Assembly: GCF_022347725.1 (NCBI RefSeq)
Contig: NZ_JAKRGB010000001.1
Location: 372,001-436,000 of the forward strand
From: Ruegeria sp. Ofav3-42
GTDB taxonomy: Bacteria > Pseudomonadota > Alphaproteobacteria > Rhodobacterales > Rhodobacteraceae
Length of the DNA stretch: 64,000 bases
Reading direction: 5' to 3'
How positions within the stretch are numbered: position 1 is the stretch's first letter; each line of letters opens with the position of its first letter. Of the stretch, positions 33,976 to 42,707 are shown piece by piece. The translations under genes and the position numbers were made by a program. The notes under the pieces were generated by a model that searched no databases, was not told the DNA's origin, and saw only the letters and a list, made by a program, of their open reading frames with translations.

Positions 33976-34947
33976 TCAGTGGTCAGTTGCTTTGCCCGAT
34001 ACAGACTTAATCAGCGGAGAAATAACCTTTGTCGCCAACGGAATCAGCACCATCCCCCAGGCCAACCCAAACACGCCGTCCATTGTGGCCTTGGACACCC
34101 ATTCAACGACTCCGGTCCATTGTTCTGACACTGAATGGCCAATGGCATAGGCCCAGTCATGAATGTGATGGCCCAGCCAGCCGAATCCCAGCACCTCCAT
34201 CCCGTGGATGATGATCGATCCTCCGACCCAAAGCATCGCAGCGGTCCCAACGATTGACAGGGTCTTCATTACGCCCGGCATCGCCTTGACAAGTCCTCGA
34301 CCCAGCCCTCGTCCAACCGGCGTCGGCGCGTTCTGGGCCAGGTACAACCCGACATCATCCATTTTCACGATCAGGGCCACCGATCCGTAAACCGCAACCG
34401 TCACCCCTATCCCGACAACCGCAAGGGTCGCGGCTTGCATCCACAGGTTTGGCGCTTCGATCGCAGCCAGTGCGATTGTCATGATTTCAGCGGACAGGAT
34501 AAAGTCGGTCTTGATCGCGCCCTTGACCTTTTGCTCTTCCAGATGACCGGGATCGCGTATCGCCATATCTTCCTCGATGGCATGGCTGCCATGCGGGAAA
34601 AGGACATGAAAAATCTTTTCGGCGCCCTCAAAACACAGGTAAGATCCGCCTATCATCAATAGTGGCGTTATCAGCCATGGCGCGAAGTTCGCCAGCAGCA
34701 GGGCAACCGGAAGCAACAGGATAATCTTGTTGAAAATGGACCCGCGCGCGATGCGCCAGATGATCGGAAGTTCCCGTGCAGGCGCGAATCCCTGAACGTA
34801 TTTCGGGGTCACAGCCGCATCGTCGATGATCACGCCTGCGGTCTTTGCCCCCGCTTTGCCCGCAGCTGCGACCACATCATCCACGGAAGACGCCGCAACC
34901 TTTGCAATGCCCGCAACGTCATCCAATAGGGCCAATAGACCGCTCAT
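33976..34947 (-). CDS. DUF808 family membrane protein
   Basis: A 323-residue protein of the DUF808/YedI family with several hydrophobic helices from residue 75 on (IILLLPVALLLANFAPWLITPLLMIGGSYLCFEGAEKIFH) and conserved KTDFILSAEIMTIALAAI. Start MSGLLALLDDVAGIAKVAASSVDDV matches the family. Function unknown. Divergent from gap1, with the operator-like repeats between. Confidence 0.85.
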   Translation of the reverse strand: MSGLLALLDDVAGIAKVAASSVDDVVAAAGKAGAKTAGVIIDDAAVTPKYVQGFAPARELPIIWRIARGSIFNKIILLLPVALLLANFAPWLITPLLMIGGSYLCFEGAEKIFHVLFPHGSHAIEEDMAIRDPGHLEEQKVKGAIKTDFILSAEIMTIALAAIEAPNLWMQAATLAVVGIGVTVAVYGSVALIVKMDDVGLYLAQNAPTPVGRGLGRGLVKAMPGVMKTLSIVGTAAMLWVGGSIIIHGMEVLGFGWLGHHIHDWAYAIGHSVSEQWTGVVEWVSKATMDGVFGLAWGMVLIPLATKVISPLIKSVSGKATDH

Positions 34948-34998
34948 GGTGCTTCCTTTCTTTTCACCTGCCGCAACAGGACCCTACCCGATCTCTGA

Positions 34999-35041
34999 GC
35001 TAGCGCAAGCGTTAGCGCAATCGCGTGAGGTTTGCGCTAAC
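34999..35041. promoter_or_regulatory. Operator-like repeats upstream of gap1
   Basis: An inverted pair GTTAGCGCAA (35011-35020) and TTGCGCTAAC (35032-35041) lies 88 bases before gap1. An overlapping near-palindrome GCTAGCGC-AA-GCGTTAGC (34999-35016) adds a third half-site. Its core matches the perfect GTTAGCGCTAAC before gap2. The shape (palindrome with central CG) is that of a LacI-family site. Confidence 0.65.
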
Positions 35042-35128
35042 ACCTTAAAAATATGCTGCTTTTGGTCTTTTGAGATTCAGAAATCGCGGCTATATGGCCT
35101 GCAAAGCAAGCGCATTTGGAGACGTCAT

Positions 35129-36130
35129 ATGACCATCAAGGTCGGTATCAATGGTTTTGGCCGCATTGGCCGCTGCACGTTGTCGCATATCGCGGCATCC
35201 GCCCGTAACGACATCGAAGTGATCAAGGTCAACGCAACCGGCCCGCTGGAAACCACGGCGCATCTGCTGAAATACGACAGCGTCCACGGCCGCTTTCCGC
35301 GCGACGTTGCCATCAACGGCAACACCATGGATCTGGGCCGCGGCCCGATGGAGATGTTCTCGACCTACGACATGAACGAACTGGACTGGGACGGCTGTGA
35401 CGTCGTTCTGGAATGCACAGGCAAGTTCAATGATGGCCTGAAAGCCAACACGCATCTGGAGCGCGGCGCGCAAAAAGTTCTGCTGTCGGCGCCCGGTAAA
35501 AACGTCGACAAGACCATCGTTTATGGCGTGAACCACAACAGCCTCGTTGCCGAAGACAAAATGGTCTCGAACGGCTCGTGCACCACGAACTGCCTTGCTC
35601 CGCTTGCCAAGGTACTCGACGAAGGTATCGGCATCGAGCACGGCATCATGACCACGATCCACGCCTATACCGGAGATCAGCCGACTCTGGACCGCCGCCA
35701 CAGCGATCTGTACCGCGCACGCGCGGCAGCCATGTCGATGATCCCGACCTCCACCGGCGCTGCAAAAGCTCTGGGAGAGGTCCTGCCCAACCTGAAGGGC
35801 CGTCTGGATGGCTCGGCCATCCGCGTGCCTACGCCGAACGTTTCGGCCGTGGATCTGACATTCCGCGCCGCGCGCGATGTGACAACTGAAGAAGTGAACG
35901 CCATCGTGCGGGAGGCCTCGCAGGGGTCGATGCAGCGCGTTCTGGGTTATGAGCCCGCCCCGCTGGTCTCGACCGATTTCAACCACACCGAAGAAAGCTC
36001 GATCTTCGCACCGGATCAGACCCGCGTCGTTGGTGACCGCATGGTCCGCGTGCTGGCGTGGTATGACAACGAATGGGCGTTCTCGGTCCGTATGGCCGAC
36101 GTCGCGGTCGCCATGGGCCGCCTTAACTAA
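35129..36130 (+). CDS. gap: Glyceraldehyde-3-phosphate dehydrogenase, paralogue 1
   Basis: Phosphorylating GAPDH of 333 residues with nucleotide motif INGFGRIGRC (7-16), catalytic C151 in SNGSCTTNCLAPL and H178 in TTIHAYTGDQ. The Asp that selects NAD in classical enzymes (INDL; present as D36 in paralogue 2) is missing: the segment reads VIKVNATGPLE, with A36. A relaxed or NADP-leaning cofactor use, hence a gluconeogenic or Calvin-type role, is therefore possible. The start at MTIKVGINGFG has GGAG upstream; the longer frame from 34826 crosses the promoter. Confidence 0.95.
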   Translation: MTIKVGINGFGRIGRCTLSHIAASARNDIEVIKVNATGPLETTAHLLKYDSVHGRFPRDVAINGNTMDLGRGPMEMFSTYDMNELDWDGCDVVLECTGKFNDGLKANTHLERGAQKVLLSAPGKNVDKTIVYGVNHNSLVAEDKMVSNGSCTTNCLAPLAKVLDEGIGIEHGIMTTIHAYTGDQPTLDRRHSDLYRARAAAMSMIPTSTGAAKALGEVLPNLKGRLDGSAIRVPTPNVSAVDLTFRAARDVTTEEVNAIVREASQGSMQRVLGYEPAPLVSTDFNHTEESSIFAPDQTRVVGDRMVRVLAWYDNEWAFSVRMADVAVAMGRLN

Positions 36131-36156
36131 GACGCTTTTGAAATCTTGAACCTATT

Positions 36157-36187
36157 CGCCCGCTCAGGTTATCTGGGCGGGCGTTTT
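36157..36187 (+). terminator. Terminator after gap1
   Basis: Twelve-base-pair stem with G-T pairs (36157-36168 with 36172-36183, loop TTA) followed by TTTT. Confidence 0.8.
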
Positions 36188-36201
36188 CGTCCGGGGCTCT
36201 T

Positions 36202-36345
36202 ATGACCAATCAAATCGCCATCTGGCTTGCCCTGCTGATTCTGGGCTTGATCATTGTCAGCTATGCCCTTTTCGGCACCGATCAATTCGTGTTCCTCGGC
36301 AAGAAGCTCTACGCGTTTTTGGACTGGCTCGCTTTCTGGCGCTGA
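36202..36345 (+). CDS. Small membrane protein, 47 aa, between the gap genes
   Basis: ATG-to-TGA frame of 48 codons starting 14 bases past the gap1 terminator. The peptide begins MTNQIAIWLALLILGLIIVS, one clear membrane helix, then a short aromatic tail ending DWLAFWR. The composition (helix plus W-rich amphipathic end) looks like a real small inner-membrane protein. Ribosome site weak. Expression would need read-through of the gap1 terminator or a local promoter. No family recognised. Confidence 0.6.
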   Translation: MTNQIAIWLALLILGLIIVSYALFGTDQFVFLGKKLYAFLDWLAFWR

Positions 36346-36357
36346 CAGAGGTTTTGC

Positions 36358-36394
36358 TTGACATTTCTGTCTATCTGGCTTTGTTAGCGCTAAC
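36358..36394 (+). promoter_or_regulatory. gap2 promoter with overlapping palindromic operator
   Basis: Perfect -35 TTGACA (36358-36363) followed 19 bases later by the perfect palindrome GTTAGCGCTAAC (36383-36394), which covers the expected -10 region. A repressor bound there would block RNA polymerase. The same half-sites lie upstream of gap1. Confidence 0.72.
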
Positions 36395-36426
36395 TTATTA
36401 CAGCCGCATTTCGGACGGAGCAGGAC

Positions 36427-37422
<996 letters not shown>

Positions 37423-37431
<9 letters not shown>

Positions 37432-39425: not shown

Positions 39426-39504
39426 ACATCTTTGAGACATTGCCTCTGTTCAACCAATTTATGCAAGCCTATTGTGCGCCCAAACGCATCGGAGGAGATC
39501 TGCA

Positions 39505-41004
39505 ATGACCGAGCTTTCCCATTTCATCAACGGCGAGAATGTCGCCGGAACCTCAGGACGATTTGACGACGTCTTCAACCCCGCCACCGGCGAGGTTCAG
39601 TACAAGTGCCCGATGGCAAATGTTGCGGAAACGACCGCCGCAATCGAAAGCGCCGCAGCCGCGCAGCCAGCATGGGGTGCTACCAACCCTCAGAAACGCG
39701 CGCGCGTCATGATGGCCATGGTCGGTCTGATGAACCGTGACATGGACAAACTGGCCGAAGCGCTGAGCCGCGAGCACGGCAAGACCATCCCTGACGCCAA
39801 AGGCGACCTACAGCGTGGCCTGGAAGTGATCGAATACTGCATCGCCGCGCCCCAGATGCTGAAGGGTGAGTTCACCGACAGCGCGGGTCCCGGTATCGAC
39901 ATGTATTCAATGCGCCAGCCTCTGGGCGTTGTCGGCTCAATCATGCCGTTCAACTTCCCCGCAATGATGCCTCTGTGGCACGTTGGTCCGGCGCTGGCCT
40001 GCGGCAACGCCGTGGTTCTGAAACCGTCCGAGCGCGATCCGTCGGTTCCGCTGATGCTGGCTGAACTGTTCATTGAGGCCGGTCTGCCCAAGGGCGTCTT
40101 CCAGGTGGTGAACGGCGACAAAGAGGCCGTAGATACCATCCTCGACAGCGAGATCATTCAGGGCGTTAGCTTCGTAGGCTCAACCCCGATCGCGCAGTAC
40201 ATCTACTCCCGCGCAACGGCGAACGGCAAACGTGCGCAGTGCTTTGGCGGCGCCAAGAACCATATGATCGTGATGCCTGACGCAGATCTCGATCAGGCCG
40301 CTGACGCTCTGGTCGGTGCCGGGTTTGGCGCTGCTGGCGAACGCTGCATGGCCATTTCGGTTGCTGTTCCCGTTGGCGAGGAAACCGCAGACGCGCTGAT
40401 CGAAAAGCTGATCCCGCGTGTCGAAAAGCTGAAGGTCGGCCCCTACACCGCCGGCGATGATGTCGACATGGGCCCGGTTGTTACCGGTGCTGCCAAAGAA
40501 CGTATTCTCGGCCTGATCAACTCGGGCGTGGAGCAAGGCGCGAAACTGGTTGTCGACAACCGCGATTTCAGCTTGCAGGGCTATGAGGACGGTTTCTTTG
40601 TCGGCCCTCACCTGTTCGACCATGTGACGCCCGAGATGGACATCTACAAGCAGGAAATCTTTGGCCCGGTTCTGTCGACCGTGCGTGCGGGTTCGTACGA
40701 AGAAGCCCTGAAACTGGCGATGGATCATGAGTACGGTAACGGCACCGCGATCTTCACCCGTGATGGTGACACCGCGCGTGACTTTGCCAGCCGTGTGAAT
40801 ATCGGCATGGTCGGCATCAACGTTCCGATCCCGGTTCCGCTGGCCTATCACACCTTTGGTGGCTGGAAGAAATCCATGTTCGGCGACCTGAACCAGCACG
40901 GCCCGGACAGCTTCAAGTTCTACACCCACACCAAGACAGTCACGTCGCGTTGGCCGTCGGGCATCAAGGAAGGTGGCGAATTCAACTTCAAAGCGATGGA
41001 TTAA
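39505..41004 (+). CDS. mmsA: Methylmalonate-semialdehyde dehydrogenase (CoA-acylating)
   Basis: Aldehyde dehydrogenase (499 residues) converting methylmalonate semialdehyde to propionyl-CoA at the end of valine degradation, and malonate semialdehyde to acetyl-CoA. It shows PFNFPAMMPLWHVGPALACGN (NAD region), FVGSTPIAQYIYSRA and catalytic Cys in AAGERCMAISVAVPVG. The TFGGWKKSMFGDLNQHG C-terminal block marks MmsA. Start at MTELSHFIN with GGAGGAG upstream, rather than 11 codons earlier. The rest of the pathway lies at 45.5-48.6 kb. Confidence 0.94.
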   Translation: MTELSHFINGENVAGTSGRFDDVFNPATGEVQYKCPMANVAETTAAIESAAAAQPAWGATNPQKRARVMMAMVGLMNRDMDKLAEALSREHGKTIPDAKGDLQRGLEVIEYCIAAPQMLKGEFTDSAGPGIDMYSMRQPLGVVGSIMPFNFPAMMPLWHVGPALACGNAVVLKPSERDPSVPLMLAELFIEAGLPKGVFQVVNGDKEAVDTILDSEIIQGVSFVGSTPIAQYIYSRATANGKRAQCFGGAKNHMIVMPDADLDQAADALVGAGFGAAGERCMAISVAVPVGEETADALIEKLIPRVEKLKVGPYTAGDDVDMGPVVTGAAKERILGLINSGVEQGAKLVVDNRDFSLQGYEDGFFVGPHLFDHVTPEMDIYKQEIFGPVLSTVRAGSYEEALKLAMDHEYGNGTAIFTRDGDTARDFASRVNIGMVGINVPIPVPLAYHTFGGWKKSMFGDLNQHGPDSFKFYTHTKTVTSRWPSGIKEGGEFNFKAMD

Positions 41005-41070: not shown

Positions 41071-41856
41071 TCAGTTCTGGAGGAATTCACGCAGAGTGAT
41101 CTTGCCATCAAAATCCGCATCGAGTTCAGCCATCAGCATCCGCAACTCATGCGCGGGCATGCAGGCTTTGGCGATGCCGTCGATCTTTTCATTTTCAACC
41201 ATCGTCAGGCACTCAGCGGACAGAGGTCCATCCACTTCAGGATCGGGAAACTCAACGATATCCCGCACCTCGACAGCTACGAACTCATCCGGAGAAACAA
41301 CGCCGTTTTCGTCGGCGTCATATTCCAGAAATTCCACGGCACGCTCGGCTAGATAGAATATCTCGAACTCGGAATACTCAACTTTGCCGTCAGCGTTGGA
41401 GTCCGCCCGGCTGATCTCATCCGCTGCAATGTCTTCGGCCGTGCAAGGCTCCGCGGTGCCATCACAGTCCTCGGGCACAAACAGAACATCCTCTTCTGTC
41501 AGGAACTGGTGGAGTTCGGATTGAGTAATCACTCCGTCTCCGTCCTGATCAAGCTCGGTAAAAAAGATCCGCGCGTTCGGAGTGGCCTGTGCAGGTGTTT
41601 GCGCAGTCCCCCAGTAGAGGCCCGCCAACAGAAGGACCGGCAACACATATAATGTCTTGGGGGCAAAACGGCTTAATGAGCGTAAAGGCATGTCATCTTC
41701 TCCAACAGTATCAGGTGAAGGCCCCGCCAGTTCCCGGTCGATCACACCGCGCACGAGTTCGCTCATCGACGATCCGCGCTGCTCGCTCAGATCAGCCAAT
41801 TTGGTTTTCAACTCATAAGATACGCGAATTTCCAAGGTTTCCGATTTCTTGGCCAT
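41071..41856 (-). CDS. Membrane-tethered ribbon-helix-helix protein with four EF-hands
   Basis: A 261-residue protein with an unusual fusion. Residues 7-44 (LEIRVSYELKTKLADLSEQ, then MSELVRGVIDREL) match a ribbon-helix-helix DNA-binding domain. One membrane helix (69-85, LYVLPVLLLAGLYWGTA) follows basic residues, placing the C-terminus in the periplasm. That part has four canonical 12-residue EF-hand loops at D103-E114, D152-E163, D180-E191 and D246-E257, and four cysteines (131, 138, 216, 232) that could form disulfides. A calcium-sensing, ToxR-like one-protein signal system is inferred. Start MAKKSETLEI is the natural domain start; upstream codons to 42021 lie in the promoter region. Confidence 0.8.
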   Translation of the reverse strand: MAKKSETLEIRVSYELKTKLADLSEQRGSSMSELVRGVIDRELAGPSPDTVGEDDMPLRSLSRFAPKTLYVLPVLLLAGLYWGTAQTPAQATPNARIFFTELDQDGDGVITQSELHQFLTEEDVLFVPEDCDGTAEPCTAEDIAADEISRADSNADGKVEYSEFEIFYLAERAVEFLEYDADENGVVSPDEFVAVEVRDIVEFPDPEVDGPLSAECLTMVENEKIDGIAKACMPAHELRMLMAELDADFDGKITLREFLQN

Positions 41857-41933
41857 ATCGTGCAGTCTCCGAATTGCTGTGGGCCTGTCCTCTGCAGTTG
41901 AAGCAGACATGACCCGGAAAATACCCCAAGCCG

Positions 41934-41988
41934 TGTCCCGCAAACAGGAAAAACGTGTCCGGACATCCGACTGACCACCGTCGGGACA
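41934..41988. promoter_or_regulatory. Symmetric TGTCC/GGACA array between the EF-hand regulator and the transpeptidase
   Basis: A perfect ten-base palindrome TGTCCGGACA (41956-41965) is flanked by TGTCC at 41934-41938 and GGACA at 41984-41988, 22 and 23 bases from the matching central half-sites. Another TGTCC lies near 41886. Multi-copy, helically phased half-sites are the usual operator form for ribbon-helix-helix repressors, so autoregulation and control of the divergent gene are proposed. Confidence 0.6.
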
Positions 41989-42107
41989 AGCAAAAAACCG
42001 CATGTGCATCGCAACTCTCACGGAAAATTTAAACGGTGCATCTGGCCCTGCGGGTAAGCAGCCACTAAATTGCCTGAAAACCCCGAGCAGTCTTTCAGGA
42101 GGCTTAG

Positions 42108-42707
42108 TTGTCCAGTTCCCGCATTACACGTCGCGCCGCCCTGTTGGGTGTTGCCTCCACAATCGCCGCACCAACGCTTCTGCGCGCTCAAAGCACTGAT
42201 GCGTTCCCCGAAACCGAAGAAGCAATCAGCACGCAGCTGCCGGTGCGCCGCAATGTGTCCTCGTTCTCGCAACAAAACTGGCAGGACCACTTTGATCAGT
42301 TAGGCGTCGGCTGCCTGTTGGCTGATATCACCAGCCGCGCCGTGCATTACTGGGGTCCGGATGGCACATACAAGCTTTACCCCAGCTCGGTTCCAATGAG
42401 CGAAGAACTGACCAAGCGCGGTTACACCAAAATTGTTCGCAAAACTGAAAACCCAAGCTGGACGCCTACTGCTTCGATGCGCGAGCGTGACCCGCTACTG
42501 CCCGTTCGAATGGAGGGCGGGGAACCTGGTAACCCGCTGGGCACCCGCGCAATGTATCTGAGCTGGCCGGCTTATCTGGTGCACGGAACGCATGACACGA
42601 GGAAAATCGGACGTCAAAGTTCTTCCGGCTGCATCGGCCTTTACAATCAACATGTCGAGGAACTCTATCCTCTGGTTCAAATCGGAACTCAGGTCAGATT
42701 GGTCTGA
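42108..42707 (+). CDS. L,D-transpeptidase (YkuD family) with Tat signal
   Basis: A 199-residue exported cross-linking enzyme. It starts at TTG, supported by a perfect AGGAGG five bases upstream. The N-terminus ITRRAALLGVASTIAAPTLLRA is a twin-arginine signal. The YkuD active site is in HGTHDTRKIGRQSSSGCIGLYNQH, with the catalytic Cys in SSGCIGL and the conserved upstream His. It catalyses 3-3 peptidoglycan cross-links or attaches proteins to peptidoglycan. Divergent from the EF-hand regulator and possibly under its control. Confidence 0.88.
   Translation: MSSSRITRRAALLGVASTIAAPTLLRAQSTDAFPETEEAISTQLPVRRNVSSFSQQNWQDHFDQLGVGCLLADITSRAVHYWGPDGTYKLYPSSVPMSEELTKRGYTKIVRKTENPSWTPTASMRERDPLLPVRMEGGEPGNPLGTRAMYLSWPAYLVHGTHDTRKIGRQSSSGCIGLYNQHVEELYPLVQIGTQVRLV

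Follow-up and report, generated by a model that had tools for sequence, protein, structure and literature searches.

A ribbon-helix-helix domain, a predicted export signal and EF-hands in one frame: a candidate self-regulated gene for an exported protein in Ruegeria

The gene described here lies on the minus strand of the window (the whole stretch of 64,000 nucleotides of Ruegeria sp. Ofav3-42 DNA that was analysed) and forms an open reading frame of 261 codons, running from an ATG at 41856 to a stop codon ending at 41071. Across 41071–41856, frame 1 of the plus strand is interrupted by stops, and upstream of the ATG the gene's own frame stays open to a GTG at 42021, with the homologues supporting the ATG at 41856 as the start. 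The encoded protein joins a ribbon-helix-helix (RHH) domain to a hydrophobic segment and four EF-hands (Table 1). A divergent neighbour (42108–42707, plus strand), whose product we take by eye to carry a twin-arginine-like signal and a YkuD-like SSGC motif, leaves the operator region between the two genes. A methylmalonate-semialdehyde-dehydrogenase-like gene (39472–41004, plus strand) stands tail-to-tail with the gene on the other side. Rfam at gathering scores gave no match around the gene, and a simple scan for a sigma-70-like promoter found none there.

Table 1. Features at the locus, with window positions.
Feature	Position	Strand	Basis
Whole gene, 261 aa: RHH, linker, signal peptide/hydrophobic segment, four EF-hands	41071..41856	-	in-frame homologues
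RHH domain, residues 1-44	41725..41856	-	profiles, predicted structure, covariation
GGAG ribosome-binding site of the long product	41867..41870	-	sequence, pairing energy
Internal Shine-Dalgarno GGAG within the coding sequence	41700..41703	-	sequence, pairing energy, background comparison
In-frame internal ATG (Met56), predicted start of a short, separately exported product	41689..41691	-	sequence
Predicted signal peptide (residues 56-91) with its hydrophobic core at 69-84; a signal-peptidase-I-like site, AQA/T, follows Ala91	41584..41691	-	
EF-hand domain, predicted exported, residues 92-261	41074..41583	-	Pfam, fold match
EF loop 1, DQDGDGVITQSE, residues 103-114	41515..41550	-	Pfam, motif
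EF loop 2, DSNADGKVEYSE, residues 152-163	41368..41403	-	Pfam, motif
EF loop 3, DADENGVVSPDE, residues 180-191	41284..41319	-	Pfam, motif
EF loop 4, DADFDGKITLRE, residues 246-257	41086..41121	-	Pfam, motif
Putative operator, perfect palindrome TGTCCGGACA	41956..41965	.	centre 104 bp upstream of RHH start
Imperfect second operator copy, TGTCCCGACG on minus strand	41979..41988	.	23 bp further upstream
Half-site GGGACACG	41932..41939	-	22 bp downstream of main palindrome

Alignment of the window gene with 27 homologues (27–86% identical to it) placed the RHH domain, the hydrophobic segment and the EF-hands in one frame in 28/28 members, despite a variable linker length. The fusion is a real, conserved family. 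The first-pass annotation had proposed this layout with a membrane helix at its centre; the three parts stand together in frame in the window gene and its 27 homologues, and the N-terminal segment is neither lost nor split off as a separate gene anywhere in the alignment, whereas the segment taken for a membrane helix looks like a signal peptide (see below). It had also known of no described family with such a layout, and a literature search, with most subscription journals outside it, likewise showed, among the matches listed, no description of an RHH domain joined to EF-hands or to export signals. Within the same scope there was nothing matching an internal start at a signal peptide (judged by title) or an RHH domain combined with TonB.

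All 6/6 of the named relatives that were found are Ruegeria (Alphaproteobacteria). Among 295 genomes, 55 gave a match, mostly to the EF-hand part, and 8 reached the RHH part (table read by eye); in a genus set of 54 genomes, all with an EF-hand match, 11 carry the gene among the matches listed, one of them (G299) in frameshifted form. An RHH profile matched in 34 of 390 genomes of the order, strongly (E at most 7.5e-16) in 22, and a search of 385 genomes of the class found matches in seven, which yielded L132, L133 and L134 from three further families. In L132 two copies of the operator are present, one bearing a mismatch, together with an internal ATG that GGAG accompanies. In the order around L133, 48/150 genomes carry such genes at 62 places, 60 of which were analysed (G1102:C6 and G1164:C3 were left out) and are referred to as the other order. 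In a phylum sample of 319 genomes, 11 matched and 10 of these belong to the class; the sole match outside it (L209) is a short RHH-like frame without the hydrophobic segment and was excluded. Weak RHH matches (L109–L116, L135–L136) appeared by eye to be other RHH or mobilisation-like proteins and were left uncounted. No match was obtained with tblastn when the window protein was searched against a plasmid collection, and the own genome yielded no second good copy of the RHH module, only two weak matches (E 0.06 and 0.85).

Broken copies occur among the EF-hand members near the window gene, as one frameshift (L008, which is the same as L047) and one deletion remnant (in G302), both excluded from all counts; L041–L045 are the genes of L003–L007 and were counted once. 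In the frameshifted copy, from one Ruegeria (L008 6001–6785), the frame breaks inside the signal peptide and a 101-residue RHH and hydrophobic part remains. The remnant (L129 1–5501, G302:C39:506500-512000) keeps the operator and about 24 first codons, followed by a stop and soon afterwards by the neighbour's sequence.

The RHH-like N-terminus read from the window sequence is borne out by structure prediction. AlphaFold2 modelled residues 1–55 (from an 11-sequence alignment) as helices 14–27 and 31–43 after an extended N-terminus, at a mean pLDDT of 81.9, the models being monomers and the RHH strand forming only in the dimer. Searched with Foldseek, this model retrieved CopG, Arc, MatP, AmrZ and NikR at probabilities of up to 0.98; no E value fell below 0.001, which is what a query of 55 residues would lead one to expect. 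The VIA matches listed included PutA, Arc, NikR and antitoxins with Z up to 6.6 over 47 residues, where a Z below 8 taken alone may reflect a common structural arrangement; in both searches the matches listed were mostly RHH proteins. The Arc mutants 1myk/1myl align gap-free over 44 residues (4–47 to 6–49), and the structural alignment puts strand residues T7, E9 and R11 at the positions of Arc Q9, N11 and R13. According to PMC12645479, Gln9, Asn11 and Arg13 of Arc touch bases.

Profile evidence was weaker for the window protein itself than for its relatives. Pfam RHH_1 matched residues 8–43 at E 0.024, with 15.0 bits against a cut-off of 20.5; three distant relatives (L139, L140, L164) exceed the RHH_1 cut-off. 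Within the family, RHH_1 matches 13/28 members at E ≤0.1 (best 6.4e-4) and a NikA-like profile 7/28 (best 9.5e-6), and relatives further out score above the Pfam thresholds for RHH_1 or the NikA-like family. Against solved structures the family profile found MazE7 at 9.2e-4, followed by MatP (0.11), Mnt (0.12) and NikA (0.31), which are individually not significant. The N-terminal domain is an RHH domain by most of the testable features of the superfamily, the profile cut-off being reached by relatives and not by the window gene.

The opposite end of the protein is readily identified, with Pfam EF-hand_5 at 4.6e-17 (well over its cut-off) and a calmodulin fold match at 1.3e-6. Four complete EF loops begin, as first annotated, at D103, D152, D180 and D246, with acidic or Asn ligands at loop positions 1, 3 and 5, Gly at 6 and Glu at 12, and all four cysteines (131, 138, 216 and 232) lie in this domain; C138 and C216 are invariant in the family alignment. 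Two NCBIfam models fell short of their cut-offs, lanmodulin NF053806 (36.4 versus 135 bits) and the XopAW effector NF041410 (44.6 versus 120 bits).

Between the two domains, the segment first annotated as a membrane helix is indeed a single hydrophobic stretch; its anatomy, however, is that of a cleavable signal peptide, and it looks like one with a signal-peptidase-I-like site, judging export signals by motif (a hydrophobic core, then small residues at −3 and −1). Ala occupies −1 in 28/28 family members and −3 is Ala in 25 and Val in 3; Ala91 is the sole invariant alignment column from R36 to F99. The full-length AlphaFold2 model shows a helix at 68–84 with low confidence (block means of 54 and 45; whole model 73.5). 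A loose cleavage-site pattern was found in 28/28 family and 56/60 other-order members, and carries little weight in the wider set because it is also common in control windows (107/225 and 112/324).

These observations bear directly on the interpretation offered by the first-pass annotation, namely a one-component, ToxR-like regulator in which an uncleaved anchor would hold the protein in the membrane and periplasmic calcium binding would alter how the RHH domain binds its own promoter and perhaps others. The fusion of RHH domain, hydrophobic segment and EF-hands, which persists across families, fits that proposal, as do the charge ahead of the hydrophobic core, which exceeds the charge behind it in 20/28 family and 57/60 other-order members, and four of the 60 (L152, L156, L160 and L161) that lack even the loose cleavage-like pattern. 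Cleavage at the site would sever the sensor from the DNA-binding part, and the invariance of that site in 28/28 members, together with the internal start described next, speaks against an uncleaved anchor; we consider the ToxR-like model unlikely.

All 28 family members contain a start codon in frame directly ahead of the hydrophobic core (ATG in 25, TTG in 3; in L009 and L015 the second of two adjacent Met codons was taken). A Shine-Dalgarno motif, defined as GGAG, AGGA, GAGG or GGGA at −15 to −5 of the start, precedes it in 28/28, against a background of 1054/9703 codons. The other order has an internal ATG in 45/60 members, 39 of them with the motif, a count slightly favouring the motif because any ATG with it was accepted where several were possible. 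Pairing energy with the end of the ribosomal RNA averaged −7.8 at internal starts versus −3.5 in the background (Fisher over 13 chosen lineages, 4.6e-6), and the codon phase of the Shine-Dalgarno differs among lineages. Glycine codons within 6 codons ahead of the internal start are GGA in 23/23 cases, versus 47/408 elsewhere in the family genes, a bias unreplicated in the other order, where all 4 such codons are GGG. A second translation start therefore likely yields a separate exported EF-hand protein without the RHH domain, as far as sequence can tell, and a conserved start of this kind is a further point against the ToxR-like model.

The same stretch could instead act within a single long product, as a Shine-Dalgarno-like signal that slows elongation and aids membrane targeting, with the methionine incidental and the RHH domain kept as an autoregulator. 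Pauses of this type before membrane segments have been proposed, and some members do lack an internal start codon. L134, which has EF-hands and the operator, offers no start codon anywhere from its RHH domain to the hydrophobic core, and its retention of the architecture is at the same time a point in favour of the ToxR-like model; L133 has an internal ATG without a Shine-Dalgarno. Across the other order, 15/60 members have no internal ATG and 6/45 ATGs have no motif. A pause, however, needs no start codon, yet one is present at initiation spacing in 28/28 and 39/60, and in L048–L050, where the first start is almost without a Shine-Dalgarno, a TTG follows an AAGGAGG that lies in a different codon phase. 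We regard a purely long product as rather improbable. As L134 and the other members without an internal start indicate, the short product cannot be expected in every member, and what all have in common is the full-length form.

The fragment upstream of the gene that the first-pass annotation had named (41857–42107) holds the palindrome TGTCCGGACA. A perfect copy lies within 250 bp upstream in 23/28 family members, four others have it with one mismatch and L015 has TGTCATGACA. Those 23 members hold 26 perfect copies, all except three centred 94–118 bp upstream, and many members have extra copies or half-sites 22–25 bp away. No other perfect copy was present in twelve fetched regions (eleven of ~19.5 kb and one of 10 kb), which contain six one-mismatch copies elsewhere. 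The 15-mer TGTCCGGACACGAAA gave 8 matches in 394 genomes, 5 before a family gene and 3 elsewhere, compared with 3 matches for its reversed control; a literature search for TGTCCGGACA brought up no bacterial subject by title among the matches listed. Upstream (≤200 bp) of other-order members the core GTCCGGAC or GTCATGAC was found in 36/60, versus 1/169 coding windows and 22/3000 shuffles, and the 24/60 without a perfect core include some near variants by eye.

The strongest result of this analysis came from comparing RHH residue 7 with the central dinucleotide of any GTCnnGAC in the 200 bp upstream, across 93 RHH proteins (28 from the family, 60 from the other order and 5 others). With Lys7 the centre was AT (GTC-AT-GAC) in 9 rows and never CG, leaving one row with CT and one without a core; without Lys7 it was CG (GTC-CG-GAC) in 55 rows and never AT, while 15 rows had no core and the centre in 6 was CC, TG, CA, GG or GC. 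Several of the core-less rows show near-variant cores by eye. Where Asp replaces Glu at residue 9, the centre is CT/AG in 5/6 cases and AC in 1. Carriers of the Lys7/AT pair include EF-hand members (L015, L133, L138), members with other domains (L140, L145, L147, L150, L161) and one with no domain (L152). Within a single genome (G1102), three of four paralogues were analysed and show three centres that fit their own RHH domains: K7 with AT in L138, M7 with CG in L177 and D9 with CT in L184. The rows are related: on a tree computed for 60 rows with residue 7 removed, both traits change 6 times, and the independent trait pairs number 6 on all branches and only 1 on supported branches. Because residue 7 and operator centre covary, which is hard to explain otherwise, we suggest that the RHH domain recognises its own promoter.

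Beyond that promoter, the own genome has 10 perfect copies of TGTCCGGACA in total. We looked among the other nine for a regulon and found none evident, these copies lying mostly inside long six-frame ORFs (by eye), with one near a contig end (C56:239) ambiguous; for a ToxR-like regulator, the lack of an evident regulon at these nine sites is a further difficulty. Divergent control of the neighbour at 42108 was likewise rejected as the main role, since that neighbour is retained only in three Ruegeria-type loci among those compared (14 regions, with L121 dropped).

The domain carried behind the RHH and hydrophobic parts varies. Payloads in the other order are EF-hands, a TonB C-terminal domain (TonB-C), one or more unnamed domains, or none (L152), and sensors typically exchange their outside domain while the DNA-binding part stays constant, which favours the ToxR-like model. 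The same recurrence weighs against another explanation, in which an RHH antitoxin-like gene and a secreted EF-hand gene were fused by chance, leaving one half as a functionless relic. EF-hand proteins that lack the RHH domain and have a signal-peptide-like start do exist in the same genomes (e.g. L002), a point in its favour, but both halves and the frame are retained down to 27% identity despite linker changes, the operator follows the RHH residue, and the layout recurs with other payloads; we judge a chance fusion to be very improbable.

Seven members (L166–L168, L170, L172, L177 and L182) have an RHH domain, a hydrophobic segment and TonB-C, with the same operator and an internal ATG. TonB-C scores above the Pfam cut-off in L166 and L170, and the seven TonB-C members were aligned; L168 diverges from its relatives in the TonB part, probably through a frameshift. 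In G1102 (G1102:C2:135650-137900) L184 and L177 form a same-strand tandem, EF-hand gene then TonB-C gene, each with its own operator type. Unnamed domains, predicted to be exported, stand behind RHH and hydrophobic segment in L139, L140, L145, L147, L150, L161, L164, L165, L171, L173, L175, L193 and L196. Aligned, these thirteen resemble one another mainly in the RHH part, and several have two cysteines; a Pfam scan of ten proteins covered seven of them and returned only RHH-type families in six and none in L175. Short members with one EF-hand (L149, L153–L155, L185 and L195) have neither an internal ATG nor an operator core. Among the EF-hand members, calcium might conceivably act through the EF-hands on DNA binding; as a general signal of the RHH/operator unit calcium is unlikely, because the unit also carries domains other than EF-hands.

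The reading that we favour, and consider fairly probable on sequence grounds, is a self-regulated gene for an exported protein that combines an RHH autorepressor with an internally started, secreted form. One mRNA would give two products. In the long one, a cytoplasmic RHH domain would precede the signal peptide and the EF-hand domain, and the short one, starting at Met56, would be an ordinary secretory precursor of a periplasmic EF-hand protein. RHH dimers would occupy the palindromes in the gene's own promoter, in many members at two to three sites or half-sites about 22–25 bp apart, and would most likely repress it. The export pathway would take the long product, so that the RHH domain may stay tethered to the membrane or, once the signal peptide is cut, remain attached to its stub; joined to an export signal in this way, repression could track the amount of protein made or exported. 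Parts of this scheme have support in the sequences, namely the RHH identity, recognition of the own operator (through covariation), the export signal with its cleavage site, the internal start and the swappable domain. Repression rather than activation we infer from RHH family membership and the site layout, and tethering or cleavage as a regulatory input, like calcium binding by the payload, is an extrapolation of the same order. Only tentatively, and with some doubt, do we extend the scheme to an alphaproteobacterial class in which a promoter-specific RHH repressor would be fused to the export signal of its own payload and the frame would contain an internal ribosome-binding site, export or cleavage would gate repression in a feedback loop formed by a single gene, payloads could be swapped and the operator code would stop cross-talk between paralogues.

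Set against known systems, the gene combines familiar elements in a distinct manner. Small, soluble repressors are the main form in which RHH proteins are known, and CopG, Arc and the RelB/MazE/ParD-type antitoxins are small soluble autoregulators; the RHH fold, the Arc-register strand residues and the short palindromes in the own promoter are alike, whereas the RHH domain here forms the first 45 residues of a predicted exported protein, and no toxin gene was noticed next to it. An N-terminal RHH domain fused to a larger domain is shared with PutA and NikR, which are regarded as cytoplasmic regulators, and the PutA RHH domain stands first among the VIA matches listed, with a Z of 6.6 that many other RHH rows equal; the second domain here, in contrast, has an export signal and is predicted to be able to start alone. 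EfhP-type proteins and lanmodulin also have a signal peptide and EF-hands. To our knowledge no such periplasmic EF-hand protein has an RHH domain, and the EF loops of lanmodulin have Pro at position 2, unlike those of the window protein. The genes for CheA-S, IF2 and ClpB make two proteins from one frame through a second start, as predicted here, but in the present gene the second start begins an export signal, and the gene's own regulator is part of only one of the two products. ToxR-like regulators likewise unite a DNA-binding domain with an outside domain through a single hydrophobic segment, and differ in that the gene described here has a conserved cleavage-like site and an internal start. 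In a survey of transmembrane regulators (PMC10269533), which gives more than 100 DNA-binding domains in tables, the words 'ribbon', 'RHH' and 'CopG' are absent from the main text.

If the favoured reading is true, an RHH domain fused to an export signal whose exported part is also made alone would be a new gene design, and one gene would link transcription control to protein export. The pairing of residue 7 with the operator centre would offer a directly testable recognition code. We suggest that annotation which settles on a single start and a single domain name would overlook half of such a gene.

By eye, the window also contains two adjoining glyceraldehyde-3-phosphate-dehydrogenase-like genes (34826–37431, plus strand), and family members occupy two different settings, both near branched-chain amino acid catabolism-like genes.
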